Of a stretch of 45,267 nt of DNA, positions 5,256 through 27,679 are shown piece by piece. The translations under genes and the position numbers were made by a program. The notes under the pieces were generated by a model. The model was not told the DNA's origin and searched no databases. It saw only the letters and a program-made list of their open reading frames with translations. The DNA comes from an uncultured Oscillospiraceae bacterium (lineage in GTDB: Bacteria > Bacillota > Clostridia > Oscillospirales > Oscillospiraceae): assembly GCA_947632005.1 (NCBI GenBank), contig CANRNU010000017.1, forward strand, positions 1-45,267, written 5' to 3'. Numbering within the stretch: the first letter of the stretch is position 1; each line of letters starts with the position of its first letter.

Positions 5256-5294
5256 TTTAAAGAATCGGGTCGTCTACAGAAAAGAGGTTGCAGC

Positions 5295-6848: not shown

Positions 6849-6893
6849 CCTCTGTCCCCCGGCAAAAGCAGAGGGACCGAACAGGAGGCCCCG

Positions 6894-12048: not shown

Positions 12049-12543
12049 TTAAAAGCGCACGTTCAGCAAGAAGCGGAACACGGCCCAGATGCCCACGGCC
12101 ATCCCCACGGTGATGGCGTAATAGCTGGGTTTTCTGCACCGGAAGTAGATCAGGAACGCCAGCGCGCAGAACACCGCCCCTATCACGAACAGATCCGTCC
12201 ACTTGGCCAGCAGGTAGCTGATGACGAGGATGGCCAGGATGATGAGGGCCTTGACCTCCACCAGCAGGTTCACGGTCTTGTATTCCAGGGGCTGTTTTTT
12301 GGCGATCTTATAAATCTCCTTGCCCACCAGCAGCGCGCAGCAGAACATCATGAGCACCATCAGCAGCGTGGGGAAGGCCCGGCCGTTGACCACGTCTCTT
12401 TCCGATATGGCCACCTGCTGGGGCATGATGAGCAGGATCACCCCTCCGAACAGGAAAAACAGTATGCCCACCGTCAGGTCTACCGGGATGCGTATCTCCT
12501 TTTGCTGGAGCTTGGCGCCAAGTCTATCCAATTTGTCTTTCAC
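12049..12543 (-). CDS. tctB: Tripartite tricarboxylate transporter small subunit TctB
   Basis: The 164-residue protein has a short charged N-terminus and four hydrophobic segments, the usual form of the poorly conserved TctB subunit. It lies between tctC and tctA. Translation starts at GTG with GGGAGG seven bases upstream. The gene follows the hairpin after tctC and ends 15 bp before tctA. Confidence 0.85.
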   Translation of the reverse strand: MKDKLDRLGAKLQQKEIRIPVDLTVGILFFLFGGVILLIMPQQVAISERDVVNGRAFPTLLMVLMMFCCALLVGKEIYKIAKKQPLEYKTVNLLVEVKALIILAILVISYLLAKWTDLFVIGAVFCALAFLIYFRCRKPSYYAITVGMAVGIWAVFRFLLNVRF

Positions 12544-13860: not shown

Positions 13861-14661
13861 TCACGCGCCGAGATAGTGCCAGGCGTTATAGACGCTGATG
13901 GCGATGATGACCGCCATCAGGACGGTGAAGAGCTTGTCCACCGCCCGGTTGTCCAGCCGCTTGTTGATCTTCCGGCCTGCCATGCCGCCGCCGATGCCTC
14001 CCAGTACCATCAGCACCAGGGTGTGGACCGTGAAGTCCGGCACGGTATGGGTGATGAGGGTGGCCAATAGGCTGGTGATCTGGCTGAAGAGGATGATGTA
14101 CAGGCTGTTGGCCGCCGCCGTCTTGGTATCCATGCTGAAAAAGTAGAACAGCACCACCAGATTGATGGGGCCGCCGCCGATGCCCAGGAAGCTGCTCATG
14201 ACGCCCAGGACCAGGCCGATGACCAGGCACAGGGCCGTGCTGTCGATCTTCTTCGTCCGGATGCCGGCCTTTTTCAGGGTGTACAGCAGGGTCATGAGCG
14301 TGATGAGCGCCAGGCAGACCGCCTGGACGCCGCCCACCATATCCGGGTCCGGGGAGGCGGCCCGCACCGCCGTGAACAGCTGCTTTCCCACCACGCCGCC
14401 CACGGCGGCGCCCACGGCCAGCGGCGTGCCGGTACGCAGGTCCACCGTCTTCTCCCCCGCCGCCATGGACCGGCCCACCGAGTAAAAGCTCATGGCCAGC
14501 ACCGTGCAGCCGGAGAGAAAGCTGATGGTGGACACACTGGCCCAGCCGAACAGGTCCAGCACCGGTTTGATGATGACGCCGCCGCCGATGCCGCAGATGG
14601 CCCCCACGATGGAGGCGAAAAAGCTGACCGCGAAAAACAGCAGCGATTGGATGATCGTCAT
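13861..14661 (-). CDS. TauE/SafE-type (TSUP) membrane exporter
   Basis: The 266-residue multi-spanning protein has the two half-repeats of the TSUP family, marked by AICGIGGGVI near the N-terminus and FLGIGGGPIN in the second half. TSUP proteins move sulfite, sulfoacetate, sulfolactate, thiosulfate and other small anions, usually outward. It is the last gene of the long leftward sugar cluster, 48 bp after the LarA-like gene. I infer that it exports the sulfur-containing or other anionic end product of that pathway. The ligand cannot be read from the sequence. Confidence 0.87.
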   Translation of the reverse strand: MTIIQSLLFFAVSFFASIVGAICGIGGGVIIKPVLDLFGWASVSTISFLSGCTVLAMSFYSVGRSMAAGEKTVDLRTGTPLAVGAAVGGVVGKQLFTAVRAASPDPDMVGGVQAVCLALITLMTLLYTLKKAGIRTKKIDSTALCLVIGLVLGVMSSFLGIGGGPINLVVLFYFFSMDTKTAAANSLYIILFSQITSLLATLITHTVPDFTVHTLVLMVLGGIGGGMAGRKINKRLDNRAVDKLFTVLMAVIIAISVYNAWHYLGA

Positions 14662-14709
14662 GTGGTGTCCTCTCTTTCAGGGCAGATAGGGCCGGGCCAG
14701 GCGGCCCGT

Positions 14710-16197
14710 TCAGCCGCCGCAGGGGTGGCCGGTGATGGGGGCGGCGTCCCGGGCGGGGTCCTTCATGCACAGATGGACCGCCGCGGTGGTGAAGGTCCTG
14801 GGCAAGGCCAGGATATTGGGCTCCGGGCCCACATATTTCTTCATGGCGTCGGCCAGGGCCTCCTCAAAGGTGGCCCGGGTCTTGAGACCCATGCTGCGGG
14901 CGATGCCGGGCTCCCGGGCGCCTACGATATAGATGGCGCTGGTGTTCATCTCCGCGATATGGCCGCAGCTCATCATGGAGAAACCGTGGAAGGGATGGAA
15001 GGCGTTGGCGAAGCGGTATTTGCGGATATAGTCCTCCCGGGTCGCAAAATACTCCCCGTACCGGTCCATGTCCGCAAGGGTATTCATGCTGTCGTGCTGG
15101 AACATCTCGTACAGCTCCCGCAGATAGGGCCAGCGCTCGTCGTGGAACCAGCCGTCGCAGATGCTGCTCACGATGAACACGCATCGGTCGCTCATCACCC
15201 GCTTGTGGCGGATGACCTGGGCAGAGAGGGCCTGCATCATCTGGATGGGGTTGGTGCCCATGCCCGGGCCGTAGTGGAAGTCAGTAGGCATGCCGAAGAC
15301 CACCACGTCGTACTTCTTCTCCGCCCAGTGGACGTATGTCCGCTTGTCCGCCGTCTTCCAGGCGATGGGCTGCATCTCTTTGGCCCAGCCGGAGTTGATC
15401 TCGATCTGGCGGCTCTTGGTGTCCAGCACCGCGTCGCAGCAGAAGAATTTCTTGCCCATCTTCTCTTCCATCCACATGCCCTGCTGGTCGAACTTGCTGC
15501 GCATGACGCTGGAGGTGGACACGGGCACGAAATCCGGCTGGTGCATGACCTTGGGCACATGGTGGGCGGCGATGCTCCGCCAGTGGCTGATGCCGGTGGC
15601 GCAGTGCTTGTAGCCGCCGGAATAGCCCCCGTAGGGGTTGCCCTGGGTGTGGCCGATGAGGATGGGCAGGTCCGCGTCGAAGACGTATTTGTTCATGATC
15701 ACGTGGTCCCCCTGGGGGGTATAGCCCAGGTCCACCAGGTGGTCATAGTCCTCGCTGTCATGGCTGGTGATCTGTCCGGAGGGATAGAACTCATGGAACA
15801 GCTCCTCTCCCAGGATGGTCCGCATCTCCGGCACGGTGGCCCGGGGATGCAGGCCGTTGGAGAACAGCAGCAAAATGTCCTTTTTCTCCACGCCCGCGGC
15901 GTACAGCTCGTCCAGGCAGGCCCGGATGGCCACCTTCCGGTGGCTGGTGGGCTGGTTGCCGCCCTTGACGATGTCGGGGATGACGAACACCGCCGTCTTG
16001 CCGGGCCCGGCAAGCTCCCGCAGGGGCGGCATGCCGATGGGATGGCGGATGCTCTCCAGGGTGGCGGCATACAGGCTGTCCCAGTCCTGGGGCAGGCAGG
16101 GCGGATCGGGCACGGTCTCGCCGGGGATGAAGACGTCGGTATAGTCCGGCAGCTCCGCGCGCATGGTGCCGTGACCGTATTCAAAGTCCAGTTTCAT
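14710..16197 (-). CDS. LarA-like (DUF2088) nickel-pincer racemase/epimerase homologue
   Basis: The 495-residue protein resembles nickel-dependent lactate racemase LarA. The segment GGYSGGYKHCATGISHW carries the Lys that ties the pincer cofactor in LarA, with a downstream AAHH at the place of the metal His. SNGLHPRATVPE resembles the LarA His-Arg substrate loop. Family members racemise or epimerise 2-hydroxy acids such as lactate, malate or sugar acids. The cofactor-making genes larB, larC and larE are not in this window, so they must lie elsewhere if the cofactor is used. AGGAGG precedes the ATG. Context suggests action on a hydroxy acid formed from, or feeding, the neighbouring sugar pathway. 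Confidence 0.8.
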   Translation of the reverse strand: MKLDFEYGHGTMRAELPDYTDVFIPGETVPDPPCLPQDWDSLYAATLESIRHPIGMPPLRELAGPGKTAVFVIPDIVKGGNQPTSHRKVAIRACLDELYAAGVEKKDILLLFSNGLHPRATVPEMRTILGEELFHEFYPSGQITSHDSEDYDHLVDLGYTPQGDHVIMNKYVFDADLPILIGHTQGNPYGGYSGGYKHCATGISHWRSIAAHHVPKVMHQPDFVPVSTSSVMRSKFDQQGMWMEEKMGKKFFCCDAVLDTKSRQIEINSGWAKEMQPIAWKTADKRTYVHWAEKKYDVVVFGMPTDFHYGPGMGTNPIQMMQALSAQVIRHKRVMSDRCVFIVSSICDGWFHDERWPYLRELYEMFQHDSMNTLADMDRYGEYFATREDYIRKYRFANAFHPFHGFSMMSCGHIAEMNTSAIYIVGAREPGIARSMGLKTRATFEEALADAMKKYVGPEPNILALPRTFTTAAVHLCMKDPARDAAPITGHPCGG

Positions 16198-16213
16198 AGA
16201 TGCAAACCTCCTG

Positions 16214-17047
16214 TCAATGGCCCAGATAGAGCCGGATGATCTCCAGATATTCCTCCGGATAGAAGCCGATCTCGCCCGTGAATCGGGTCAGGGCGATGAG
16301 CCCGCCGTCGATCTCCGGGATGGAGGCCAGCATGGCGGCGTTGTCGGTCTTGAGCCCCCCGCCGTAGACCACGCTCAGGCCGCCGGTCCGCTCCTTCACG
16401 AACCGGGCGATCTTGGTGATATAGGGCTTGTCCGCCGGGGTCTTGCCCGGGCCGATGGACCACACCGGCTCGTAGCCGATGACCACTCCCGCCGGATCCA
16501 GACCCTCCAGGCCGATGTCCAGCTGCTGGCCCAGGACCTGCTGCCACCGGTCCTGCTCCTCGCTCTTCTCCCCGATGCAGTAGAGGACCTTCAGCCCCGC
16601 AGCCTGGGCGCAGCGCATCTCCCGGTTCAGGAGCCTGCACACCGCCGCCGGGTCCGTGACGCCCGCCTCGGCCAGGATGCCCGCCTTGTCGTTTCGCTCC
16701 TCGCAGTGGCCCACGATGGTCCAGCCGCAGCCCAGAGCCGCCGCCGCGTGGGCGGGCCGGTTGGTGGTGAAGGCGCCGAAATTGCCGCCCACGGCCGTGT
16801 CCTCCCGGAACACCCCCTGGCAGCCGATCTGCACGGGGCTGTCCGACGTCCGGGCCGCCCCGGCGGAGAGCAGATGGGCCTCCGGGAAAAAGTCGGCAAA
16901 CACCGCCTCCCCCTCATAGGCCCGGAGCCCCTCCTGGGTCCCGGCCACGATGCGTCCGCCCCACTCCCCCAGCGGGGCCAGGCGGTTCACGCCCCCCAGC
17001 TCCGGCGGGATATCAAAGCGCTTCAGATTCAAAAAGAGATATTTCAT
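16214..17047 (-). CDS. Triose-phosphate isomerase homologue with altered phosphate site
   Basis: The 277-residue protein has a TIM barrel with the catalytic set kept: Asn7 and Lys9 in NLK, His114 in VGHCEER and Glu193 in YEPVWSIGPGK (loop 6). The phosphate-gripping part is different: the usual YGGS is YGGG (229-231), and the loop normally reading GGLVGGASL is GGLIALTRF (248-256), so the two phosphate-binding glycines are gone. It should still do an aldose-ketose type isomerisation, but perhaps on a triose or tetrose without a normal phosphate. I chose the ATG at 17047, 4 bp after the upstream stop; an earlier ATG at 17071 would overlap that gene. Confidence 0.85.
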   Translation of the reverse strand: MKYLFLNLKRFDIPPELGGVNRLAPLGEWGGRIVAGTQEGLRAYEGEAVFADFFPEAHLLSAGAARTSDSPVQIGCQGVFREDTAVGGNFGAFTTNRPAHAAAALGCGWTIVGHCEERNDKAGILAEAGVTDPAAVCRLLNREMRCAQAAGLKVLYCIGEKSEEQDRWQQVLGQQLDIGLEGLDPAGVVIGYEPVWSIGPGKTPADKPYITKIARFVKERTGGLSVVYGGGLKTDNAAMLASIPEIDGGLIALTRFTGEIGFYPEEYLEIIRLYLGH

Positions 17048-17051
17048 GGTC

Positions 17052-18341
17052 TCATGCCCCCGGCTTTCCAAGATTTTTGAACATATAACCCTTGTAGCCC
17101 TCCACGCCCGGCTGGTCGAAGGGGTTGACCCCCAGCAGCATGCAGGACAGATAACAGGCGAACAGGAAGAAATAATACAGCCGCCCCAAGGTATCCTCGT
17201 CGATGGCAGGAACGGTGAACTCCAGACAGGGGATGCCCCGCTCGCTGTGGGCGGCGATGGTAGCCCGGCGGGCCACGTCGTTCATGTCCCAGAAGTCCAT
17301 GCCGGTGAGGTAGTCGAAATAGTCCTTTTTCGTCTCCGCCGGCAGCACCACGGAGGCGTCCCGGGCCGCCACAGTCAGGAAGGTCTCAAAGAGGATGGGA
17401 CTCCCCTGCTGGACGAACTGACCGGTGGCATGCAGATCCTCGGAGTTGCTGGCCACCACCGGATAGAGGGCCGTATCCTCCTTCCCCTCGCTCTCGGCGA
17501 AGGTCTGGACCCACCACTTGGCGAAGTAGTCCAGCCTGGGCTCGAAAAACGCCAGCATCTCCAGATCGTAGCCCGCCTCCAGCAGCAGCTTGCGGATACA
17601 GGCATAGCGAAGGGCCATATTCTCCCCAGCCGGCGCGGCGAACAGCTCATCCCGCATGGCCCGCATGCCCCCCGTCAGGGCGGCGATGTCCACCCCCGCC
17701 ACGGCCATGGGGAACAGCCCCACGTCGGAGATCACGGAGAACCGGCCTCCCACCCGCTCGGGGAAGGTCAGGAAGGTATAGCCGTTGTCCCGGCAGAGGG
17801 CCTCCAGGGTGGAGCCCGGCGTGCCGGTGGCAAAGATCCGCCTGGCCGCGTCCTTTTCCCCATAGCGCCGCTCCAGATACTGCCGCAGCACCCGGAAAGC
17901 GATGCCCGGCTCCAGGGTCTCGAAATTCTTGGCGATGCAGTCGATATAGACGGATGCATATCCGTCCAGCTCCTTCAGCGTCCGGGCCATCTCCGCCGCG
18001 GAGATGGTGTTGCCCGCCCAGAGGATAGCGGGGCCGCCCGCAGGCCGCAGGGCCTTGATGGCCGCCCGGGAGGACTGGTTGGAGCCCCCGATGCCGATGA
18101 CCACGAAGGCGTCGGCATCGGCCCGGACCCGGGCGGCCTGCTGCTGCAAAAACGCCACCCGCTCCGGTCCGGCGGACTCATCCACCGTCCGCCAGCCCAG
18201 AAAGTCCCGGTAGACCGGGTCCCCCGCCACAGCCTTTTCCAGCAGCGGCGCGGCCTGGGCCATCCGCGCCTCCAGGGCCCCGGGGGCAATGACGCCCTTC
18301 CGGTCCGTCAGGGTCAGGGTGATCTTTCCTTCCACGGTCAC
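17052..18341 (-). CDS. Glucose-6-phosphate isomerase homologue with altered phosphate loop
   Basis: The 429-residue protein is of Bacillus PGI length. It keeps the family marks GIGGSN (83-88), VGGRFSV (197-203) and FDQPGVEGYK, whose Lys417 is the catalytic Lys. The phosphate-binding segment, SKTFTTQE in E. coli-type and SKSGTTTE in Bacillus-type enzymes, is AKNFETLE (137-144): most hydroxyl side chains are lost and a Glu is gained. The Glu of the Bacillus-type GQYxQEG motif is Gln312. It is probably a sugar isomerase for a substrate that is not glucose 6-phosphate. GTG at 18341 overlaps the aldolase stop; a second GTG at 18335 is better spaced from GGGGAGG and may be the true start. Confidence 0.83.
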   Translation of the reverse strand: MTVEGKITLTLTDRKGVIAPGALEARMAQAAPLLEKAVAGDPVYRDFLGWRTVDESAGPERVAFLQQQAARVRADADAFVVIGIGGSNQSSRAAIKALRPAGGPAILWAGNTISAAEMARTLKELDGYASVYIDCIAKNFETLEPGIAFRVLRQYLERRYGEKDAARRIFATGTPGSTLEALCRDNGYTFLTFPERVGGRFSVISDVGLFPMAVAGVDIAALTGGMRAMRDELFAAPAGENMALRYACIRKLLLEAGYDLEMLAFFEPRLDYFAKWWVQTFAESEGKEDTALYPVVASNSEDLHATGQFVQQGSPILFETFLTVAARDASVVLPAETKKDYFDYLTGMDFWDMNDVARRATIAAHSERGIPCLEFTVPAIDEDTLGRLYYFFLFACYLSCMLLGVNPFDQPGVEGYKGYMFKNLGKPGA

Positions 18342-19495
18342 ACCTCCCCGGCCTTATAGCGCCGGGCCATCTCCTCCAGGGAGACCTGCTCCACCAGAGG
18401 CGCCCGGCCCACGCTGCCGAACTCCACGATCAGGGTTCCTACGGCCTCCTTCACGCCCCGGCGCATGGCGTCGGTCACCAGCGCCACCGTGCCCTCGTCC
18501 CCGGTGCCGTACATGACCGTGTCCATGATGGGCGGCAGAAACACCCGGGGATCAAAGGCCTCCCGGCGGGCATCCAGCAGCTCCCACACCGGTCCGATGC
18601 GGCTGTCGGTCTTCAGCTCTGGCCTGTCCCGGAACAGCTCCCGGAGATTGCGGGTCACCGCCAGGCGGATGTCCGTATCCACGTTGATCTTCCGGATGCC
18701 GCAGGGGATGGCCGCCCGCAGCTCCTCCTTGGAGATGCCGTGGGCGTTTTGCACATCGCCCCCCAGGGCGTTGATCTCGTCCACGATGTACCGGGGCACG
18801 GTGGAGGAACCGTGGGACACCAGCGCGCCTTTGATGCCAGCGTGGTCCATGCACTCCCGGATGGCGATGGGGATCTCCCGGCGGAGCTTCACATCCTTGC
18901 CCTTGCTGGCGCCGTGCATGGTGCCGTAGCTGATGGCCAGGGCGTCCACGCCGGTCTTTTGGAAGAATTCCACCGCCGACAGGGGGTTGGTATAGGTCGA
19001 GTTGGCGGCAAACACATGGTCCTCCACCCCGGCCAGGATGCCGAGCTCTCCCTCCACGGAAACGCCCCGCTCGTGGGCGTAGCGCACCACCTCCCGGGTC
19101 AGCTCCACGTTCTGGTCGAAGGGCAGGCTGGACCCGTCGATCATCACCGAGGTATAACCCCCCTGGATGGCAGCCGCGCAGGCGTCGAAGTCCCGGCCGT
19201 GGTCCAGATGGAGCACCACCGGGATGGGGCTGTCCTGGGCAAAGCGCTTCACCGCGTCGGCGATGTTCTTCGCCCCGCGTTTTTTATCCTCCAATGTGCC
19301 GTTGGCAAAGTCCGTCCGGCCTCCCATGAAGGCGTTGGCCAGGTCCGCCCCCTGCAAAATGGCGGGGGAGCGAAACATCTCATGGACGGCGATGACCGCC
19401 TCGGCCTGGGCCACGGCATTCACGTTGAAGGCGCCCTGGGCATAGCCGTGGGCCTGGGCAGCGTCCAGCACGGGACGCAGCGGGATCAGTGACAT
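18338..19495 (-). CDS. Class II fructose-bisphosphate aldolase family protein
   Basis: The 385-residue protein has all zinc and catalytic residues of class II aldolases: Asp and His in LHLDHG, Glu in EGELG, His in SYGTMHGASKG and His in VSHGSSTVP, then KINVDTD near the C-terminus. The HGSS-VP form is that of the longer, Calvin-cycle-like (CbbA) subtype. It would cleave a ketose 1-phosphate derivative to dihydroxyacetone phosphate and an aldehyde. Unlike its neighbours it keeps its metal and DHAP-binding motifs, as expected if only the C6 end of the substrate is unusual. AGGAGA precedes the ATG. Its stop overlaps the start of the PGI-like gene. Confidence 0.88.
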   Translation of the reverse strand: MSLIPLRPVLDAAQAHGYAQGAFNVNAVAQAEAVIAVHEMFRSPAILQGADLANAFMGGRTDFANGTLEDKKRGAKNIADAVKRFAQDSPIPVVLHLDHGRDFDACAAAIQGGYTSVMIDGSSLPFDQNVELTREVVRYAHERGVSVEGELGILAGVEDHVFAANSTYTNPLSAVEFFQKTGVDALAISYGTMHGASKGKDVKLRREIPIAIRECMDHAGIKGALVSHGSSTVPRYIVDEINALGGDVQNAHGISKEELRAAIPCGIRKINVDTDIRLAVTRNLRELFRDRPELKTDSRIGPVWELLDARREAFDPRVFLPPIMDTVMYGTGDEGTVALVTDAMRRGVKEAVGTLIVEFGSVGRAPLVEQVSLEEMARRYKAGEV

Positions 19496-19530
19496 GACAG
19501 GATCTCCTTTCTATCAAAACATCTGTTCTC

Positions 19531-20670
19531 TCAGGCGGCGTAGACGATCCGGCCGCCCACGATGGTACAGCGCACCTGCAGGTCCCCGTCCAGCACGGTC
19601 AGATCCCCGTCCATGCCGGGGGAGATGACCCCTTTGCTCTTCCAGCCCATCAGGGCGGCGGGGTTGGCCGTCATGAGACGGCAGACCTCCCAGGGAGGCC
19701 GGCCAGTGAATTCTGCCAGATTGCGCAGGGCCCGGACCATGGTGAGGGTGCTCCCGGCCCGGGCGCCGCCCCCGGCCAGCTTGGCGTCCCCGTCCACCAC
19801 CTCCACATCGTTGACCCCCAGCTTGTACCGGCCATCCGGCAGACCTGCGGCCATGATGCTGTCCGTGATGGCCACCACTCTGTCCCAGCCCTTGGCCTTC
19901 AGGATGAGGCGCACCGACCCGGGATGCAGATGCAGCCCGTCGCAGATGGCCTCGCACCACACGTCCGTCTCCAGCGCCGCCCCGAAGATGGCGGGTTCGT
20001 GCTGATGGAAAAGCCGCATGGCGTTGGCGGTGTGGGTAGCGGCAGAGGCACCGGCCCGGATACAGGCCATGGCCTGGTCATACGTCGCGCCGCTGTGGCC
20101 GATGGCCACGGTGATGCCCATCTCCCGCAGAGCCGGGATCAGGGCCGCCGCCCCCTCCACCTCCGGGGAGAGCGTCACATAGGTGATGTGGCCCCCTGCC
20201 GCCTGCTGGTACCGGGCAAACAGCGCCGGGTCCGCCTTTTTCATCAAAAGCCGTTCCGGCATGGCCCCTTTGTATTCCGGGGACAGACAGGGCCCCTCCA
20301 GGTGGATGCCCAGCAGGGCCGCCCCGTCCGGCCGGCTCTCGATCACCTGCCGCGCCTGGCCGATGCACCAGAGGGTCTGCTCCGGCGTATCAGTGAGCAC
20401 GCTGCACTGCCAGCCGGTCACGCCCTGGCTGGCGAAGAACCGCCCGATGGTCCGAAGGCCGTCCGCGTCGGCAGCGTTCACGTCCACCCCGCCGCCCCCG
20501 TGGGTATGCAGGTCGATGAAGCCCGGCAGCACCAGGCACCCGGTCACATCCAGCCCCTCCGCAGGCGCGTCCTCCAGGGCGGCGATCTTCCCGTCCCGGA
20601 CGGTCAGGCCGGTGTCCCGGAGCCCCTCCGGGGTCAGCACCCGGCCTCCCCGCAGATGCAGCCCGCCCAT
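19531..20670 (-). CDS. nagA: N-acetylglucosamine-6-phosphate deacetylase family protein (NagA)
   Basis: The 379-residue amidohydrolase has the NagA metal and catalytic residues: HTH (55-57), Glu125 in HLEGP, His192 in IGHSGA, His213 in THTANAM and Asp270 in ITDS. His247 of DGLHLHP is also kept. The Arg of the family's REPG motif, which I recall as a phosphate contact in E. coli NagA, is His224 (QHEP). It should remove an acetyl group from a GlcNAc-type sugar, but the C6 substituent may not be phosphate. Its ATG shares one base with the NagB-like stop (TGATG), which points to translational coupling. No separate ribosome-binding site is obvious. Confidence 0.88.
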   Translation of the reverse strand: MGGLHLRGGRVLTPEGLRDTGLTVRDGKIAALEDAPAEGLDVTGCLVLPGFIDLHTHGGGGVDVNAADADGLRTIGRFFASQGVTGWQCSVLTDTPEQTLWCIGQARQVIESRPDGAALLGIHLEGPCLSPEYKGAMPERLLMKKADPALFARYQQAAGGHITYVTLSPEVEGAAALIPALREMGITVAIGHSGATYDQAMACIRAGASAATHTANAMRLFHQHEPAIFGAALETDVWCEAICDGLHLHPGSVRLILKAKGWDRVVAITDSIMAAGLPDGRYKLGVNDVEVVDGDAKLAGGGARAGSTLTMVRALRNLAEFTGRPPWEVCRLMTANPAALMGWKSKGVISPGMDGDLTVLDGDLQVRCTIVGGRIVYAA

Positions 20671-21491
20671 CAGAAGGGCTGCTCCGCGGCGATGTGGTTT
20701 ACATAAATCACCGCATCCGGGTGCTCCTGGGCCAAGGTCACGGGAAAGGCGCTGGTGATCTCCCCATAGGCCGCCCGGCGGCACACGGCCCTGTGCCAGT
20801 CCCGGAAGACGGCCAGGCGCAGCTTTTTCGCCCCCAGGATCTCCTTCATGCCCACGGTGACACACTTTTTGGGCATGGCCTCCAGGGCTCCTCCCAGGTC
20901 CCCCACGCAGTTGGTGGCCCGGGTCTCCGGGGCGATGTCCAATACCCGGGTGGTGAGGGCGGCGAACTGTGCCGGTGTCAGGTCCGGCTGCGGCTCGTTG
21001 AAGGCCAGGTGGCCCGTGATGCCCACGCCGCCGAAGCAGGCGTCCACACCCCCCAGCTTTTCGATGAGCGCTGGGACCTTATCCGGGTCTGCCGGGTCGG
21101 GGAATATCCGCTGCTCCGGGGGCATGACCAGCGCCGGGTCCAGCTTTCCGTAGACCTCCCGGTCCATAAAACCCCGGAAGGACAGGGGGCTGTCCTGGGG
21201 GATATACTCCCCCTCATCGGTCAGGTACTCGTCCATGTTGATGATCCAGCAGTTTTTCAGGTCCAGCCGCCGCTCGTTCACCATCCGGACGAAGTACGGG
21301 TACTGCCCCACCGGCCCCACCGGGCAGATGAGCACCGTACGGCGTCCCGCGGCGTTGTTCTCCCCGATGACGGCGCACATCTCCTCCGCCAGGGCCTCAA
21401 AGACCGCCTCGGAGCTGGGGAATCTCACGATGGGCAGCCGGGCGTTCTCCCCCAGATGCTCGGGGGGGATGTGATAATACTCCATTGACAT
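20670..21491 (-). CDS. Glucosamine-6-phosphate deaminase-like sugar isomerase (NagB family)
   Basis: The 273-residue protein keeps the NagB general-base motif NMDEY (Asp87) and His161 and Glu166 of GHLAFNEP. Two parts differ. The catalytic Asp of G-N-D-G-H is Thr159 (GITGH), and the LPTGGTP phosphate loop is replaced by CPVGPVGQYP (56-65). The allosteric-site Lys of E. coli NagB is also missing. It is therefore a diverged isomerase/deaminase, probably acting on a sugar other than glucosamine 6-phosphate. I chose the ATG at 21491 because GAGGAGG lies seven bases upstream; an ATG two codons further is also possible. It follows the response regulator by 17 bp. Confidence 0.82.
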   Translation of the reverse strand: MSMEYYHIPPEHLGENARLPIVRFPSSEAVFEALAEEMCAVIGENNAAGRRTVLICPVGPVGQYPYFVRMVNERRLDLKNCWIINMDEYLTDEGEYIPQDSPLSFRGFMDREVYGKLDPALVMPPEQRIFPDPADPDKVPALIEKLGGVDACFGGVGITGHLAFNEPQPDLTPAQFAALTTRVLDIAPETRATNCVGDLGGALEAMPKKCVTVGMKEILGAKKLRLAVFRDWHRAVCRRAAYGEITSAFPVTLAQEHPDAVIYVNHIAAEQPF

Positions 21492-21508
21492 GAATCGACC
21501 TCCTCGGT

Positions 21509-22195
21509 TTATTGGAACAGATCCTCCAGCCCCAGCCGGTGGATCATCTGTACGATCTCCTTGGTGCGGGAGCATCCGAACTTATTCAAAAGGCCCTTGA
21601 TCTGGGTCTTGACCGTGACCACCTCCACGCAGCGCAGACGGGCGATCTCCGGCACCTTATGGCCCTCCAGAAGATACTTGACCAAGGTCCGCTCCGCCGG
21701 GGTAAGGCGGGACACGTTGTTGATAAAAAACAGCAGCGACCGCTCATTCTGACGCAGACGGCTGTACTCCCGCAGCACCACCTGCCGGACCCGGGGGTCC
21801 ATGACGGTCCGGTCCTGATAGGCGCTGCGGATGTGGTCCAGGAGCACCTGGTCGTCGCAGCCCTTGACCACATAATCCACCGCGCCGCTGGCCATGGCGC
21901 TCACGATCATATCCTCCGTCTCGTGGGCGGTGAGGAAAATGATCTTCACCTGGGGCTTGGTGCGGTGGATGGTCTCCGCGGCCTCGATGCCGCTCTGCAT
22001 GGTCTCCATCTCGATGTCCATGAGGATCACGTCGCAGTCCCGCTCCAGCGCCAGCTCACAGATCTGCCGGCCGCTCCCGGCGGCGCCTGCCAGCTCCATA
22101 TCCGGCTGGGAGGAGATGATGTCGCACATGTCCTCCAGCAGCAGCGGCATGTCGTCCGCCGCCATGACCCGGATCTTTTCCGTCCCCTCGCTCAT
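21509..22195 (-). CDS. Response regulator with LuxR-like C-terminal HTH
   Basis: The 228-residue protein has a receiver domain (about 7-125) with acidic pocket Asp14-Asp15, phospho-acceptor Asp60 in VILMDIEME, Thr89 and the Lys of YVVKG. The C-terminal region (about 158-215, LTPAERTLVKYLLEGHKVPE) matches a LuxR/NarL-type helix-turn-helix, with a weaker second half than usual. It overlaps the sensor gene by 4 bp (ATGA) and leads directly into the catabolic genes, so it probably controls this cluster. The GTATGAA repeats at 26488-26515 are a candidate target. Confidence 0.9.
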   Translation of the reverse strand: MSEGTEKIRVMAADDMPLLLEDMCDIISSQPDMELAGAAGSGRQICELALERDCDVILMDIEMETMQSGIEAAETIHRTKPQVKIIFLTAHETEDMIVSAMASGAVDYVVKGCDDQVLLDHIRSAYQDRTVMDPRVRQVVLREYSRLRQNERSLLFFINNVSRLTPAERTLVKYLLEGHKVPEIARLRCVEVVTVKTQIKGLLNKFGCSRTKEIVQMIHRLGLEDLFQ

Positions 22196-23697
22196 GGTTC
22201 CGTATCCCCCTCGAACAGCGGCAGCAGGATATAAAAGCAGCTCCCCTCCCCCGGCTTCGTCTCCAGGCGGAGGATGCCCCAGTGGCTCTTGACGATCCTG
22301 CGCACATAGTAAAGGCCCATGCCCCAGTTATAGGCCGTGTTCTTGCTGGTGAAGAAGGGGTCATAGATATGGCCCATGGCCTCCTTGGAGATGCCGCCCC
22401 CGTTGTCCCGGACCTCCAGCACGGTCCAGAGCCGTTCGCTGCGGATGACCAGCTCCACCTCCGGCTCCCGGCCGTTCTGGACCGCGGCCTCATAGCCGTT
22501 GATGAGAAGGTTGTATACCGCCTCGCTGAGGGCCCCCAGGTCGGCCAGCACCAGCCGGTCGGTCTGCCGGGTGACGGTGACCTCCCCCTCCGGGTACTTG
22601 CCCCGGAAGCGCTTCACCGCCGAGTCAGCCACCTGGCCCGCCGGGACGGGCCGCAGGCTCAGGGCCTGGGTCTTGAAGGTCCGGTAAAGCTCCTCCATCC
22701 GGGTCAGCATGCCCTCGTTCAGGTCCCGGAGCAGGTCGGCGCAGGCCCGGACCTGTTCCAGATCGGGGGACTCCTTCTCCAGGGCCCGGGACAGCTTCTT
22801 GTGGGCCACCCGGCTGGACAGAAGCTGATTTTTGATGCCGTGGACGAACACGGACACACCCTCGCCGGCGGCGTCGAACCGCCGCTCCAGGATCATGTCG
22901 TCCTTGCTCTGGGCAAAGTCGATCTGGGTATAGCGGATCATGCCGTAGCCGCCCAGAACGACGAAAAACACCGTACAGGACCCCAGGATCAGCCAGCCCA
23001 CCCCGGACAGGTGGGGACTGATATAGCTGGTGATGCCCAGGCGGATGTATTCGCCGATGAACATGTTGTAGATCTGTGCCGGGTCCTTGGTGGCATAGAG
23101 CAGATACAGCGCGGAGATGCTGGCCACCGACAGCAGCAGGTAGCGGAAATTGCGCTTGAAGTACGGGATGGTGATGGCCCGGTATTCCAGTACCAGCAGC
23201 ACGGCGGCGATGCCCAGATAGATCAGTATCCACCCCATGGATACCGGCAGCATGGCCCGCAGCAGCCAGAACCGGTCCCGGACCAGCGCATGGAAAACGT
23301 CCGGCCAGAAGTAGACCAGAAACAGCGCCGGCAGCACGAGGGCCAGCGTCCTGAGCAGCTTCAGCCGCCGCCGGACAGCCGGGATCATGGTCACCTCCAG
23401 GGACAGCAGCAGCACGCTCAAAGGGAACAGCGTCCGGCCCACCGCCACCACATAGCCCAGGGGCTCCATGGGGATGGGCGCGAACTGGAGCCAGCGCTGG
23501 ATCCGCACGGATAAAAACAGAAAGACCGGTTCCTTCGCGGCCACACCGCCCATCTTGGCGATGTAGACCACGACGCCGGAGAGCATGAGCAGGTTGGACA
23601 CGCTCATGCCCAGCAGGTGCAGGGAAAAGACGTCCTTCCGGTGCAGGGCCACGAAGACCGACAGCGCCAGGCAGAGGAAGATGACGATGAGCAGCAC
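22192..23697 (-). CDS. Membrane sensor histidine kinase
   Basis: The 501-residue protein has about seven N-terminal membrane helices (to about residue 255), no clear extracellular or PAS domain, then a kinase core. The phospho-acceptor His lies in FVHGIKNQLLSS, the N-box is NLLINGYEAA, the ATP lid contains DNGGGI and GMGLYYVRRIV, and DPFFTSK is the F-box. The ligand is probably sensed in or near the membrane, or through the transporter encoded upstream. Translation starts at GTG with GGAGGGGAG ahead of it. It is paired with the response regulator by a 4-bp overlap. Confidence 0.9.
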   Translation of the reverse strand: MLLIVIFLCLALSVFVALHRKDVFSLHLLGMSVSNLLMLSGVVVYIAKMGGVAAKEPVFLFLSVRIQRWLQFAPIPMEPLGYVVAVGRTLFPLSVLLLSLEVTMIPAVRRRLKLLRTLALVLPALFLVYFWPDVFHALVRDRFWLLRAMLPVSMGWILIYLGIAAVLLVLEYRAITIPYFKRNFRYLLLSVASISALYLLYATKDPAQIYNMFIGEYIRLGITSYISPHLSGVGWLILGSCTVFFVVLGGYGMIRYTQIDFAQSKDDMILERRFDAAGEGVSVFVHGIKNQLLSSRVAHKKLSRALEKESPDLEQVRACADLLRDLNEGMLTRMEELYRTFKTQALSLRPVPAGQVADSAVKRFRGKYPEGEVTVTRQTDRLVLADLGALSEAVYNLLINGYEAAVQNGREPEVELVIRSERLWTVLEVRDNGGGISKEAMGHIYDPFFTSKNTAYNWGMGLYYVRRIVKSHWGILRLETKPGEGSCFYILLPLFEGDTEP

Positions 23698-23732
23698 CTC
23701 GCTCCCCTCCTTCCTGATTCAACGGAAAGCAG

Positions 23733-23767
23733 ACCGCCGGGGCCCGCCTCAGCGGAGCCCCGGCGGT
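23733..23767 (-). other. Hairpin after the ABC binding-protein gene
   Basis: ACCGCCGGGGC (23733-23743) pairs perfectly with GCCCCGGCGGT (23757-23767) across a 13-nt loop. It lies between the binding-protein stop and the kinase start. No T run follows on the minus strand, so it is a likely attenuator or mRNA-stabilising hairpin that lowers expression of the regulatory and enzyme genes relative to the binding protein. Confidence 0.65.
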
Positions 23768-23798
23768 AAAATGGTCCGGTGTTTTGCGCGGGTCGGTC

Positions 23799-24809
23799 TT
23801 ACTCGCCCTTCGCCTCGGCGTAGGCGTCATAGGCCTCCTGCATCACGTCGAACAGGACGTAGTCCTCCACGGGGACCAGCTGGTCCTCGGTGAGGCGGCC
23901 CGTGTTGACGAACACGTTCTGCTGGGTCTCATAGACGGTCTTCAGCGCGTCCATATCGCCGCAGACCTCGGTGATGGTCTCCCAGTCGGCCTCGCCCAGG
24001 GCGGCGATCTGGGTATCCAGGTCGGCGTCCACGTGGGTGGCCAGGCTCTTGGCCATATCCTCCTGGTTGGCCAGGCGGTAGTCATGGGCCTTGTTCAGGG
24101 CCTGCCCGAACTTCACCAGCACGTCGTGGTTCTCCTCGGCATACTCAGCGGTGGTGATGTAGCTGGAGGGGAAGATGGCGGTGTCCAGGAAGTCGGCGTT
24201 CTTGCCCAGGCAGATATAGTCGTCGCCCAGCTGCTCCTTCAGCACCACGGTGTTGGGGGACCAGGAGGCGCAGGCGTCCACCTGACCGGAGACCATAGCG
24301 GTGGTCATGGTGTCCACGGTCATCTCCACGGTCTTGATGTCGTCCACGGTCATGCCGGCGGCGGCCAGCGCGGAGTGCAGGATGACCTCAGAGGAGGTGC
24401 CGGAGGAGACCGCAACGGTCTTGCCCTTCAGATCCTCAATGGTCTCGATGCCGTGGGACTTGTTGCCGATGACCTCATCGGACAGGGAGGTGGTGTGGTC
24501 CATGGCGAAGATGACGGCCTGGCCCTCGATGCACAGGGCGTGGGCGCCGTGGCCGATCTGGGAGATGTCGATGTCCCCGGAGGCCATGGCCGCGATCTCG
24601 GCGGGGCCGCCCTGGAACTCATAGACCTGCACATCCAGGCCCACTTCCTCGAAGTAGCCCTGGTCGATGCCCACGAACAGGGAGCCTGCGGAGCCCAGGT
24701 TGGGCATGTACGCCACGCGGACGGTGGTCAGCTCGTCGTCGGCCAGGGCGAAGGTGCCCAGGCTCAGGACCATGGCCACAGCCAGGAGCAGGGAAAGAAG
24801 CTTTTTCAT
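23799..24809 (-). CDS. NitT/TauT-family ABC transporter substrate-binding protein
   Basis: The 336-residue protein has a signal peptide (MKKLLSLLLAVAMVLSLG, likely cut after ALA) and a NMT1/TauA-like fold beginning VRVAYMPNLGSAGSLFVGIDQGYFEE, with GDIDISQIGHG following. Relatives bind taurine, alkanesulfonates, nitrate or pyrimidine precursors. There is no lipobox Cys, unusual for a Gram-positive binding protein. GGAGGATCACT precedes the ATG. It works with the ATPase and permease encoded just upstream. The context of a TauE/SafE exporter and a sulfatase favours a sulfur-containing ligand, as inference. Confidence 0.88.
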   Translation of the reverse strand: MKKLLSLLLAVAMVLSLGTFALADDELTTVRVAYMPNLGSAGSLFVGIDQGYFEEVGLDVQVYEFQGGPAEIAAMASGDIDISQIGHGAHALCIEGQAVIFAMDHTTSLSDEVIGNKSHGIETIEDLKGKTVAVSSGTSSEVILHSALAAAGMTVDDIKTVEMTVDTMTTAMVSGQVDACASWSPNTVVLKEQLGDDYICLGKNADFLDTAIFPSSYITTAEYAEENHDVLVKFGQALNKAHDYRLANQEDMAKSLATHVDADLDTQIAALGEADWETITEVCGDMDALKTVYETQQNVFVNTGRLTEDQLVPVEDYVLFDVMQEAYDAYAEAKGE

Positions 24810-24873
24810 AGTGATCCTCCTAATAAATTTATTTTACCTTGGTTCATCCGGCGCTGCCGGTTCAGGTACGGTC

Positions 24874-25665
24874 TTACTTGCGGACGGCCAGATATTCCTG
24901 ATAGACCTGGCTCCAGATGTAGTTTTTCAGCTCCAGGAACCGGGGGCTCATCTTGGTCTCCTGGTCCCGGGGATAGGGGATGTCGATGTCCACGATCTCT
25001 TTGACCCGGCCGGGGCGGGCGCACATGATGACCACACGCTGGGCCAGGATGATGGCCTCGTCCACGTCGTGGGTGATGAAGAAGCAGGTCTTCTGCTCCT
25101 TCTCCCATGTCTCCAGAAGCTCGGTCTGCAGCTGGGTACGGGTCTGGGCGTCCAGGGCGCCGAAGGGCTCGTCCATCAGAAGGACCTTCGGGTTCACCGC
25201 GTAGGCCCGGGCGATGGCCACCCGCTGCTTCATGCCGCCGGACAGCTCCTTGGGGTAGCTCTTGGCGAACTGCTCCAGTTCCACCATCTTCAGATACTTG
25301 TGGGCGATCTCCTCGCACTCATCTTTGCTTTTTCCCTGGAGCTTCAGACCGAACTGGACGTTCTTCTCCACGGTGAGCCAGGGGAACAGGGCATACTGCT
25401 GGAACACGATGCCCCGCTCGGGGCTGGGGCCGTCCACTTCCTTGCCGTCCACCAGGATATGGCCGGAGGTGGGGGTGTCCAGGCCGCCGATGTTATTGAG
25501 CAGGGTGCTCTTGCCGCAGCCGGAGGGGCCTACCACGCAGACGAATTCGTTCTCGTAGATATCCATGGTCACGCCGTTCAGGGCAACTACCTCGCCGTTG
25601 CGTCCCTGGAACTTTTTGACCACGTTGTCGATATGGACCTTTACTGCTGGATCGTTTCCTGCCAT
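24874..25665 (-). CDS. NitT/TauT-family ABC transporter ATP-binding protein
   Basis: The 263-residue cytoplasmic ATPase has Walker A GPSGCGKST, signature LSGGMKQR and Walker B LLMDEPFGALD, followed by the switch His in FFITHDVDEA. It matches the SsuB/TauB/NrtD subfamily. The ATG lies inside the permease gene (25-bp overlap) with AAGGAGG eight bases upstream, so the two are translated together. Confidence 0.92.
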   Translation of the reverse strand: MAGNDPAVKVHIDNVVKKFQGRNGEVVALNGVTMDIYENEFVCVVGPSGCGKSTLLNNIGGLDTPTSGHILVDGKEVDGPSPERGIVFQQYALFPWLTVEKNVQFGLKLQGKSKDECEEIAHKYLKMVELEQFAKSYPKELSGGMKQRVAIARAYAVNPKVLLMDEPFGALDAQTRTQLQTELLETWEKEQKTCFFITHDVDEAIILAQRVVIMCARPGRVKEIVDIDIPYPRDQETKMSPRFLELKNYIWSQVYQEYLAVRK

Positions 25666-26423
25666 CCTGTGAACCTCCTTTCCAAAAACCGCACGATCTT
25701 CTCAAAGCAAATGCCGATCACGCCCAGAAGGATGATGCCCAGCAGCACCACGTCCATCTGGTAATAGCCGCTGGCCTTCTGGATCATCATGCCCAGGCCC
25801 CGGTCGCCGCCCACGATCTCCGAGGCCATCAGGGTGGTCAGGGAGGTGGACAGGCCCAGCCGGGCTGCCACCAGGATGAAGGGGGTGGTGGCGGGGATGG
25901 TGACCTTGAAGAAAATGTCGCTCTGCTTGGCGCCCAGGACCCGGGCCGCCTTGATGAGGGTCACGTCCACGCCCTTGACGCCCTGATAGATGGTGATGAC
26001 CATCACCAGGAAGGCGGCGATGAAGATGACCGTCACCTTCGGCACGGTGCCGATGCCCAGAGCCGCCACGATCAGGAACACATAGGCCAGGGGCGGGATG
26101 TTCCGCACGAACTGGATCCAGGGCTCCACGATGTGCTGGAAGGGCTCATACCAGGCCATCAGAAAGGCGATGGGGATGGACACGGCAAAGGCGATGCCAA
26201 AGCCGGTCAGCACACGCATCAGGCTCGCGCCGATGTGCTCCCAGAGGATGTGGTCCTCGATGCCCTTGGCGATGAACGCCCTGTACACCTTCACGGGGCT
26301 TGCAAAGATAGCGGGCCATGCATGAGAAGCGGCCAGCCACAGGGCGACGGCAGCCGCCAGGGAGATCAGCATCCAGACCCATTTGGGGATCTTGCTCCAT
26401 ACAGCGGATTTTTTAAGTTTCAA
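25641..26423 (-). CDS. NitT/TauT-family ABC transporter permease
   Basis: The 260-residue protein has six predicted membrane helices and the EAA-like loop (GVDVTLIKAARVLGAKQSDI) that contacts the ATPase. It resembles SsuC/TauC. Translation starts at TTG: AAAGGAGGCG stands seven bases upstream and no ATG is available nearby. It is the first of the three importer genes, after a promoter/operator region at 26469-26515. Confidence 0.9.
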   Translation of the reverse strand: MKLKKSAVWSKIPKWVWMLISLAAAVALWLAASHAWPAIFASPVKVYRAFIAKGIEDHILWEHIGASLMRVLTGFGIAFAVSIPIAFLMAWYEPFQHIVEPWIQFVRNIPPLAYVFLIVAALGIGTVPKVTVIFIAAFLVMVITIYQGVKGVDVTLIKAARVLGAKQSDIFFKVTIPATTPFILVAARLGLSTSLTTLMASEIVGGDRGLGMMIQKASGYYQMDVVLLGIILLGVIGICFEKIVRFLERRFTGWQETIQQ

Positions 26424-26468
26424 ATGTATGCGCCTCCTTTGCTTGTTTAATTCTCCCAGTATGTTACT

Positions 26469-26496
26469 ATTTTAGCACATTGATTTTGTATGAAAA
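26469..26496 (-). promoter_or_regulatory. Promoter of the importer-catabolic operon
   Basis: On the minus strand an extended -10 TGCTAAAAT (box at 26474-26469) is preceded by a weak -35 TTTTCA (26496-26491) at 16 bp. The weak -35 overlaps a GTATGAA repeat, which suits an activated or repressed promoter. It would drive the importer, the two-component genes and probably the enzymes below. Confidence 0.5.
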
Positions 26497-26515
26497 GTAT
26501 GAACTTTTTTCATAC
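26488..26515. promoter_or_regulatory. GTATGAA repeat cluster, candidate operator
   Basis: GTATGAA occurs as direct copies at 26488-26494 and 26497-26503. The second copy also forms an inverted repeat with TTCATAC at 26509-26515. The cluster spans the end of the PFK-like gene and the -35 region of the importer promoter. It is a candidate binding site for the response regulator encoded downstream or for another dimeric regulator. Confidence 0.5.
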
Positions 26516-27679
26516 CCCCGCCCCGTCCAGCCGGGCCATGGCCGGCAGCGGTCCCCCCAGCAGGGGCTCGCACCAGCGGACGAAGGCGTCGGTCACGTCC
26601 CCCTGGGGCACGTCCAGGTATTCCATGGGCATGGTCCGCTCTCCCAGCATGACCTGCTCCACCGGGACCAGGAAGGTCTCGCACCGGTAGGGCGCGGCGG
26701 ACAGGCGGCGGAAGGCGACCATCTGTCCCGTCTCCCCCGCCAGGGCCGCCCGGCAGGCCACCCGGCCCGCCTCCTCTGCCTCCGCGGCGTCCACCGGGGA
26801 CTGCCAGGCAATGGAAGCCCGGGCCAGGATGCCCGGCTTCTCACTGCGGGCCTTGATCCCCAGCCGCCGGACGATCATCTGGGCCAGATGGGAGGACACG
26901 TCTCCGAAATAGGTGGACCGGCCGGTCTGAAAGATGGGCGGCACGATGGGCGTCCCATCGGCAAAGCGGATCCCCTCGCTGGCCACCACGATCACGCCCC
27001 CCAGCCGGTCATAGAGCGTCTTCACCCGGTCCAGGAACTCCTCCTCCCGGAAAGGCACCTCCGGGGGCATGATGAGATGGGGCGCGTCCCCCGCCCGCTC
27101 CCGAGCCAGGGCCGCGGAAGCGGTGGTCCACCCCGCGTTCCGTCCCAAAGACTCCAGCACCACCACATGGATGGGCAGGCTGCGCACGTCCACTGCCAGC
27201 TCCCGCAGGGTCCCGGCCATATACCGGGCCACGCTGCCAAAGCCGGGGCAGTGGTCCGTGACGGCGATATCGTTGTCCATGGTCTTGGGGATGCCCATCA
27301 CCGCCACGCCCTTCCCGGCACAGGCCGCTGCCAGCTTGCCGCAGGCGTCCATGGTCCCGTTGCCGCCGTTCATGAGCACATAGGCGATGTCCCGCTCTGC
27401 CAGAATGTCCGCCATGCGGGCGTAATCCTCCGCTTCCAGGGGATCCCGGGAGGTACCGATGGCCGTGGCCGGGGTGTGGGGCAGCTTCTCCAGCTCCTCC
27501 GCCGGCAGGGCGCCGAAGTCCAGGAGCCGCCCCTTCATGAGGCCGCCGGTCCCGCCCACAGCGCCGTAAACATGGCCCACCTCGCCGCTGGTCAGCGCCT
27601 CCTTCACCGCCCCGTACAGGGAACAGTTCAAAACCGCCGTGGGTCCGCCGCCATGTATGATGACCATGTTCTTTTTCAT
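26510..27679 (-). CDS. Phosphofructokinase-family sugar kinase
   Basis: The 389-residue PfkA-type protein opens with MVIIHGGGPTAVLN, typical of the longer group that includes pyrophosphate-dependent enzymes. The catalytic base Asp135 is in PKTMDND. At the donor site the sequence is GGNGT (105-109): the first Asp of GGDG/GGDD is Asn and the next residue is Gly, as in ATP enzymes, while the Lys of PKTMDND is usual in pyrophosphate enzymes. Donor and acceptor are therefore uncertain. It may put a 1-phosphate on the pathway's ketose. I chose the ATG at 27679, after GGAGAGGGG; it has its own promoter at 27755-27784 and lies 86 bp ahead of the importer. Confidence 0.83.
   Translation of the reverse strand: MKKNMVIIHGGGPTAVLNCSLYGAVKEALTSGEVGHVYGAVGGTGGLMKGRLLDFGALPAEELEKLPHTPATAIGTSRDPLEAEDYARMADILAERDIAYVLMNGGNGTMDACGKLAAACAGKGVAVMGIPKTMDNDIAVTDHCPGFGSVARYMAGTLRELAVDVRSLPIHVVVLESLGRNAGWTTASAALARERAGDAPHLIMPPEVPFREEEFLDRVKTLYDRLGGVIVVASEGIRFADGTPIVPPIFQTGRSTYFGDVSSHLAQMIVRRLGIKARSEKPGILARASIAWQSPVDAAEAEEAGRVACRAALAGETGQMVAFRRLSAAPYRCETFLVPVEQVMLGERTMPMEYLDVPQGDVTDAFVRWCEPLLGGPLPAMARLDGAGV

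Follow-up and report, generated by a model that had tools for sequence, protein, structure and literature searches.

Introduction

Sulfoglycolysis has been described with a kinase and aldolase route, the sulfo-Embden-Meyerhof-Parnas (sulfo-EMP) pathway, and a transaldolase route (sulfo-TAL), and the C3 sulfonates formed are exported; the aldolase of the sulfo-EMP2 version (SqvD/SqiK/SqiA) is, as in the cluster described below, of class II (PMC12890257). In this study, we analyzed a stretch of 45,267 nucleotides (the window) from an uncultured Oscillospiraceae bacterium (assembly GCA_947632005.1, contig CANRNU010000017.1, referred to as C17), whose genome of 2.3 Mb in 90 contigs has an estimated completeness of 78%. 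The window includes a cluster of 13 genes, all on the minus strand from 27679 to 13861 and separated by −25 to +101 bases. It encodes relatives of NagA, NagB and several glycolytic enzymes together with a LarA-like protein, an importer and an exporter. We propose that the cluster is probably a sulfoglycolysis-like operon for 2-acetamido-hexoses and hexoses carrying a sulfo group at C6. Its most likely substrate would be N-acetylglucosamine (GlcNAc)-6-sulfate, with glucose- or galactose-6-sulfate entering through a protein like phosphoglucose isomerase (PGI). The gene content, residue pattern, conservation, module swapping and transaldolase kinship behind this proposal are read directly from the sequences.

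The closest described relatives of the LarA-like protein are LarA Bw and LarA Sp, whose structures (PDB 9q3j, 9q2u and 9q3k) were published in 2025. LarA enzymes are racemases and epimerases; in these two, Asn takes the place of one catalytic His, and their genes adjoin glycolysis-like genes (PMC12611868). LarA Sp did not racemize lactate, and the available text of the paper gives no substrate. To account for density that was otherwise unexplained, its authors placed a linear phosphorylated aldose there, in a model they described as highly speculative, and they suggested that the substrate is a carbohydrate (PMC12611868). The window protein shares both the protein family and the glycolysis-like neighbors. 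However, the available text of that paper makes no link to sulfo-sugars, and the whole-pathway reading comes from the present analysis. Within the open-licence literature of PMC, we recognized no paper that describes the cluster as a pathway.

Results

Homologues of the cluster proteins were aligned with Escherichia coli references, which were the only control for NagA, NagB and 6-phosphofructokinase (PFK). The roles of individual aligned residues are those usually assigned to them in these enzymes. After length and identity filters, 64 of 72 rows were kept for triose-phosphate isomerase (TIM), 36 of 39 for NagB, 34 of 36 for NagA, 40 of 44 for PFK, 39 of 54 for the class II fructose-bisphosphate aldolase (FBA), and 25 of 25 for PGI. 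The resulting pattern is that of an altered C6 pocket with predicted catalysis largely intact. For instance, all 64 TIM-like proteins had the replacements S212G, G233A and G234L (E. coli numbering, for the phosphate-site residues otherwise numbered Ser211, Gly232 and Gly233), and the Ser, Gly, Gly phosphate site was intact in all six ordinary TIMs of the source and related genomes. Meanwhile, the catalytic His and Glu were retained in 64 of 64, and the Asn-x-Lys motif in 62 of 64 by motif search, the N-terminus being misaligned in the residue alignment. The PGI-like proteins showed S207A and T209N in 25 of 25 and T211E in 23 of 25, with T212 and the catalytic Arg, Glu, His and Lys retained (the last four in 25 of 25); both ordinary PGIs compared had Ser, Ser and Thr at the altered positions.

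The two amino-sugar enzymes followed the same pattern. In the NagB-like proteins, the TGGT phosphate loop was two residues shorter and Arg was missing at position 172 (36/36), while D72, H143 and E148 were kept in all. The K208 column held His, next to an Arg that the phmmer alignment places at that position. The window member had no Pfam match, and its NCBIfam score (about 81 bits) was under the cut-off. In the NagA-like proteins, R227H was found in 33 of 34, and the metal ligands Glu131, His195 and His216 as well as Asp273 were retained in all 34. As for PFK, the alignment to a distant reference showed R162H in 40 of 40 and H249 replaced by Leu or Ile, with R243 and R252 retained. In addition, the 40 PFK-like proteins divide evenly at position 104 (20 with Gly, 20 with Asp), and Lys124 was present in all. 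Residues 104 (Gly or Asp) and 124 (Lys) presumably mark the pyrophosphate (PPi) or ATP donor, so the family may include both ATP- and PPi-type members with a possible donor switch at position 104. Finally, the aldolase kept R331 and its motifs for dihydroxyacetone phosphate (DHAP). It had S61A in 39 of 39, which says little because one of the two ordinary aldolases of the source genome shares this Ala.

An earlier note on this DNA, made from the letters of the window, had described the leftward run of PFK-, NagB-, NagA-, FBA-, PGI-, TIM- and LarA-like genes with a NitT/TauT importer, a two-component system and a TauE/SafE exporter, and all of these were confirmed on the minus strand at the coordinates it gave. 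Its claim that four enzymes had lost residues holding the C6 phosphate was right as to the loss and wrong as to the number, five being altered (TIM, PGI, NagB, NagA and PFK). Its further claim that residues acting in catalysis were lost needs correction: these are mostly retained, which the note had not seen, and only D141 of NagB is replaced (Asn in 22 and Thr in 14 of 36), where the solved NagB 2bkv likewise has Asn. The aldolase does keep its motifs, as that note had said, including those for zinc, and S61A is not distinctive.

The cluster was conserved in other genomes. Among 150 genomes of the same family, a NagB-like gene (at least 45% identity) was found in nine, a LarA-like gene in nine, and both in seven (Fisher 4e-9); two weaker NagB matches (29 and 34%) were excluded. 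The Fisher tests of this study ignore kinship, and the loci counts describe close relatives and not independent samples. Named genomes were then scanned with an alignment of LarA; 540 stretches matched, 367 of them were relatives, and the 80 best-scoring relatives (80–91% identity in the best segment) were kept. Their records were mostly titled Oscillospiraceae, Lachnospiraceae and other Clostridia, with Chloroflexi, Flexilinea and Spirochaetales in addition, and many had gut or rumen sample names. Commensal isolates with the cluster or its LarA include Flavonifractor sp. An306 and An10 and Blautia wexlerae. Gene families in the loci came from an automatic choice of open reading frames (ORFs), which misses some genes (for example the window NagB), and presence counts were therefore combined with tblastn; the Pfam and NCBIfam names of neighbor families (f12, f17, f22–f24, f35 and others) were obtained by scanning one or two members of each family. 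The cluster genes reappear together in shuffled order across these neighborhoods, TIM was present in 73 of the 80 loci, and TauE was seen in 32.

Furthermore, the upper part of the pathway appears as exchangeable modules. NagA/NagB genes accompanied PFK or aldolase in 14 of the 80 loci, PGI plus PFK or aldolase in 11, and a transaldolase in nine. Where NagA/NagB were absent, there were eight loci with PGI plus PFK or aldolase, 10 with PFK or aldolase alone, two with PGI alone, and two with the transaldolase alone. In another six, an isomerase like SftI was found with PFK or aldolase, three of them also having PGI. The best solved match of the transaldolase (f17, 11 of 80 loci) was BmSF-TAL, a 6-deoxy-6-sulfofructose transaldolase, at 308.7 bits, the next protein reaching 145; identity was 65.2% to BmSF-TAL versus 45.2% to the Thermotoga maritima transaldolase. 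A WAR motif that orients the sulfonate has been named in BmSF-TAL (PMC11659671). The W of SPFxGW (Arg in T. maritima) and the R of AAxR were retained in 11 of 11 f17 members, and by alignment we take them as two letters of this motif, the A not being assigned. PFK or FBA was kept in none of the 11 transaldolase loci versus 49 of the 69 others (Fisher 8e-6; related species, not independent). One sulfofructose-type transaldolase takes the place of PFK and aldolase in other genomes, and the two variants mirror the known pair of sulfo-EMP and sulfo-TAL (PMC12890257). The transaldolase is absent from the window. The isomerase (f23), one representative of which had SftI (sulfoquinovose isomerase) as its best NCBIfam match at 229 bits (cut-off 700), is absent both from the window and from the 11 transaldolase loci. 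A transketolase-type gene pair, as in sulfo-transketolase pathways, lies near LarA in L088 (901–5189; Pfam on the L088 members), and transketolase-type families recur by clustering in L082, L083 (12405–14218) and L097, L083 also having a nucleoside hydrolase.

Of all pairs in the cluster, that of TIM and LarA varies least, which the earlier note had not remarked: in 61 of 80 loci the TIM gene immediately precedes that of LarA, and the two are a median of 15 bases apart. The window LarA-like protein matched 9q3j and 9q2u at 853 and 805 bits in phmmer over nearly its full length; it has Asn187 in place of the second catalytic His, the cofactor residue Lys197 and the conserved His117. Among homologues longer than 450 aa, the motif with Asn and Lys was found in 82 of 86 and that with His in 86 of 86. 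By these marks, it is assigned to the Asn-type LarA subfamily. In addition, every one of the 11 transaldolase loci has TIM, although these loci should form no DHAP, and the TIM phosphate site is lost. The sulfo-triose (the C4–C6 fragment) is therefore the probable substrate of both TIM and LarA. Ordinary PGI and TIM genes occur on other contigs of the source genome and likewise elsewhere in a complete genome (G078), and the source genome has three class II aldolase matches, the cluster's own included. The nickel cofactor of LarA needs LarC and LarE, and both were found in six of the eight genomes tested, the source genome included. Two LarA-like copies are present in G078 (L016), and another genome, G133, has two loci (L018 and L019). 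The 316.5 Da adduct of LarA Sp was considered as a pathway intermediate, and no match was made.

No reductase or dehydrogenase family among the scanned neighbors was found in more than four loci (f27, f41, f51 and f53, three to four each). The dehydrogenase f53 lies beside LarA in three of 88 loci, all lacking a TIM match. It was dropped as a marker of sulfolactaldehyde reductase, being equally close to GarR and YihU (about 31–33% each). A YihU-type homologue was found in three of 88 loci (31–32%) and none in the window, SlaB being outside this search. ABC importer genes follow LarA and the dehydrogenase gene in L044 and L101. In the window, an aldo/keto reductase with a 4Fe-4S domain (28335–29582, minus strand) lies immediately upstream of the PFK-like gene; it had a single distant homologue (24%, L035) among 88 loci and was for this reason dropped as the reductase of the pathway.

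The genes of the cluster and of its neighborhood are listed in table 1. Downstream and on the same strand, TctC, a small protein, TctA, a sulfatase and a GntR regulator follow.

Table 1. Genes of the cluster and its neighborhood in the window
Feature	Position	Strand	Remarks
PFK-like (PF00365)	26510..27679	-	best NCBIfam NF010675 PPi-PFK, 374 bits, cut-off 273; R162H, H249I; Gly104 with Lys124
NitT/TauT-type ABC permease	25641..26423	-	TauC model 142 bits, under cut-off 342
NitT/TauT-type ABC ATPase	24874..25665	-	profile match
Substrate-binding protein, SsuA/NMT1-like	23799..24809	-	SsuA_fam 140 bits, under cut-off 163.5
Sensor histidine kinase	22192..23697	-	HATPase_c
Response regulator, NarL-type	21509..22195	-	profile match
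NagB-like deaminase/isomerase	20670..21491	-	phosphate loop 2 residues shorter; R172 lost; D141T
NagA-like deacetylase	19531..20670	-	metal ligands retained; phosphate-binding R227 to His
Class II aldolase	18338..19495	-	Zn and DHAP motifs retained; S61A
PGI-like isomerase	17052..18341	-	catalytic residues retained; phosphate loop AKNFET versus SKTFTT (E. coli)
TIM-like protein	16214..17047	-	catalytic Asn-x-Lys, His, Glu retained; phosphate site S/G/G to G/A/L
LarA-like protein, Asn-type subfamily	14710..16197	-	Asn187, Lys197, His117
TauE/SafE-family exporter	13861..14661	-	Pfam family
TctC-like binding protein, neighboring operon	12654..13631	-	family match
Small protein between TctC and TctA	12049..12543	-	TctB by position only; no NCBIfam match
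TctA transporter	10522..12033	-	family match
Sulfatase	9168..10520	-	CxPxR motif CGPCR; no evident signal peptide (by eye)
GntR-type regulator with periplasmic-binding-like domain	8061..9161	-	family match
Anaerobic sulfatase maturase-like radical SAM protein	6894..8009	+	best NCBIfam 366.5 bits, under cut-off 441

Sulfatase and/or maturase genes lie by a minority of five of the 80 loci in addition to the window: a sulfatase 70% identical to that of the window directly follows LarA in L071, L078 has two sulfatases, L080 and L086 each have a maturase and a sulfatase, the sulfatase by Pfam and by tblastn, respectively, and L090 has a maturase. A large protein of the acyl-CoA dehydratase activase type (238–4554, plus strand; TIGR00241, 224 bits) has homologous DNA near LarA in L034. 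This gene and two others on the plus strand (5226–6848 and 6894–8009) all had family matches, and the large minus-strand ORFs that overlap them (289–3393, 3841–5025 and 5559–7460) had no Pfam match and were taken for shadows.

Elsewhere, L024 (7292–13146) has NagB-like (44–45%) and NagA-like (31%) genes with ABC permeases and YdjC-like and GFO/IDH-type genes, and none of the other cluster genes (the PFK/TIM/LarA set) were found in its fetched stretch; the pair perhaps belongs to a related but different amino-sugar route. A DUF4838 protein of about 620 aa (f12; L066, 14425–16287, and 15 further named loci) was found by clustering in 16 of 80 loci with one member scanned, and 14 of these 16 have NagA/NagB. 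It had no convincing solved relative and was not called a GlcNAc-releasing enzyme; a glycosidase is possible. Finally, a GH3-type gene adjoins PGI-variant clusters in L078, L081, L089, L091 and L095, the GH3 identity coming from one representative (L078).

Discussion

We infer every reaction of the route, its substrate, and sulfate rather than sulfonate as the C6 group. The NitT/TauT-type importer would take up the charged monosaccharide, the NagA-like enzyme would remove acetate, and the NagB-like enzyme would remove ammonia, giving fructose with the sulfo group at C6; the PGI-like enzyme would convert a hexose to the same kind of ketose. Then, the PFK-like enzyme would phosphorylate C1, and the aldolase would cleave the product to DHAP, which would enter glycolysis, and 3-sulfo-glyceraldehyde. 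TIM and LarA would act on the latter, and TauE would export the sulfur product, which might be sulfate, sulfite or an organosulfur acid. Loss of sulfate or sulfite from the enediol of 3-sulfo-glyceraldehyde could yield methylglyoxal, which a hydride cofactor could convert to lactate; for an internal hydride shift of this kind, one catalytic His would suffice. A tentative extension, to which we would assign a rather low probability, is a breakdown of GlcNAc-6-sulfate from mucus by gut bacteria with no prior sulfatase step: a parallel glycolysis would act on the sulfate ester, the TIM-like and nickel-pincer LarA-like proteins would expel sulfate from glyceraldehyde-3-sulfate, and lactate would be formed by way of methylglyoxal. 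If this were true, all six carbons would be of use to the cell, with sulfate leaving through TauE.

The earlier note had proposed that the pathway serves hexoses or hexosamines with something other than phosphate at C6, probably a sulfo group, and it had named lack of conservation as a point that would count against it. Co-occurrence of the cluster genes holds (seven genomes sharing both markers and TIM in most loci), so that this point does not tell against the note, and its reading is supported in outline. The transaldolase in 11 loci, the SftI-like isomerase and the sulfatase and maturase neighbors lend independent support to a sulfo group; the choice between sulfate and sulfonate stays a matter of judgement. 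GlcNAc-6-sulfate is common in mucins and glycosaminoglycans, and we know of no abundant natural 6-sulfonated GlcNAc. In our judgement, a sulfate ester is clearly favored over a sulfonate, because NagA/NagB imply an acetamido sugar and the sulfatase neighbors fit sulfate esters.

Several observations weigh against the proposed operon function. There was no upper or cleavage gene near LarA in 18 of 80 loci, some of which lie on short contigs. In L036, L044 and L101, LarA occurs with a gene of the 3-hydroxyisobutyrate dehydrogenase type, and TIM, PFK and aldolase are absent; these loci perhaps represent a route that imports a C3 compound directly. Together with the transketolase-type loci, they suggest that LarA could serve other routes. 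In addition, neither G078, a complete genome, nor G133, at 73% completeness, had LarC or LarE over the cut-off, and LarC, found in six of nine genomes with LarA-like genes and in 78 of 150 overall, was not clearly commoner in the former. The importer and exporter are of sulfonate type by family with scores below the specific cut-offs; both families are broad, and no specific NCBIfam model matched the TauE of the window. Moreover, the relatives of the transaldolase and the isomerase are sulfonate enzymes, and the sulfofructose transaldolase handles a sulfonate in known pathways. Finally, no homologues of the E. coli sulfoquinovosidase YihQ, isomerase YihS, aldolase YihT or sulfofructose kinase YihV were found in the 88 loci and the window (tblastn, E 1e-5).

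The kinship of the transaldolase to sulfofructose transaldolase and that of f23 to SftI raise the alternative that the C6 group is a sulfonate and that the cluster is a variant of sulfoquinovose-type degradation, or acts on a 6-sulfonated amino sugar, with TIM and LarA processing sulfolactaldehyde. The transporter families would also suit this. However, NagA and NagB imply an acetamido sugar that, to our knowledge, has no abundant sulfonated form, the sulfatase and maturase neighbors suit sulfate esters, and the loci have no YihQ homologue in a search that covered YihQ, with GH188 and other sulfoquinovosidases outside its scope. We consider the sulfonate unlikely. Another alternative is that TIM and LarA do not release the sulfur. 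They might instead isomerize or epimerize the sulfo-triose, and TauE would then export the C3 organosulfur compound intact. Export of C3 sulfonates is known from sulfoglycolysis (PMC12890257), LarA enzymes are racemases and epimerases, and TauE recurs in many loci. Nevertheless, the usual ending in 2,3-dihydroxypropane-1-sulfonate (DHPS) or sulfolactate is not evident, given the scattered reductase and dehydrogenase families and the poorly conserved aldo/keto reductase of the window, and the second catalytic His of the racemases is replaced by Asn. Export of a C3 compound is thus possible, and we doubt it somewhat. A TauE homologue has been proposed as a sulfite exporter in sulfofucose degradation (PMC12421959).

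LarA might also act in the upper pathway as a nickel-dependent sugar epimerase, for example from galactose-type to glucose-type 6-sulfo sugars, with TIM just supplying glyceraldehyde-3-phosphate. The transaldolase requires glyceraldehyde-3-phosphate as its acceptor, and the speculative aldose model and suggested carbohydrate substrate of the structure authors (PMC12611868) agree with such a role. However, the phosphate site is lost in every TIM-like protein compared, a normal TIM exists elsewhere in the genome, and the close pairing of TIM with LarA points to consecutive steps on one substrate, which makes the epimerase quite improbable. It is harder still to see the cluster as a plain second copy of glycolysis and of GlcNAc-6-phosphate breakdown whose phosphate sites have drifted. 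Scores over the cut-offs for NagA-like (TIGR00221, 271 versus 226 bits), PFK-like (NF010675, 374 versus 273) and aldolase (TIGR00167, 229 versus 216) speak for a duplicate, but identical replacements are fixed across many genera with catalytic residues retained, and a pathway of this kind has no obvious use for LarA, TauE or the sulfo-transaldolase; we regard a duplicate as very improbable. Finally, the C6 group could be a carboxylate (uronate-like), leading to tartronate semialdehyde, since f53 beside LarA resembles GarR and YihU equally. The f53 gene is confined to loci without a TIM match, the window has no YihU-type match, and the sulfo-transaldolase, sulfatase and TauE context opposes a carboxylate, to which we give hardly any credence.

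Returning to the operon for C6-sulfo sugars, its proposed steps resemble those of sulfo-EMP in isomerization, phosphorylation at C1 and aldol cleavage to DHAP and a 3-sulfo-triose. However, isomerization falls to PGI or NagA/NagB, the kinase is of the PfkA family, and no sulfolactaldehyde reductase or dehydrogenase is evident, its position being taken by TIM and LarA. With SqiK and SqiA of sulfo-EMP2, the cluster was compared by description. Some clusters approach sulfo-TAL (SftI/SftT) through their transaldolase with its matching W and R. Here the difference is that it is paired with NagA/NagB in nine of 11 loci. The likeness to GlcNAc-6-phosphate catabolism lies in the NagA and NagB families and in their metal and most catalytic residues, and the difference in the lost phosphate-binding residues. 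Judged by its genes, the cluster would work like sulfoglycolysis but is not classed as a member of it, since the search for relatives of the isomerase, kinase and aldolase of E. coli found none.

If the proposal is true, the cluster would break down amino sugars by a route that resembles sulfoglycolysis but is assembled from other enzyme families, and it would be present in many Clostridia, in metagenome-assembled genomes as well as isolates. It would offer a fate for the GlcNAc-6-sulfate that known 6-sulfo-GlcNAcases release from glycans (PMC11659886), and a candidate function for a nickel-enzyme subfamily with solved structures (PMC12611868). Furthermore, it would link the sulfation of mucus to the flow of carbon and sulfur in the gut.

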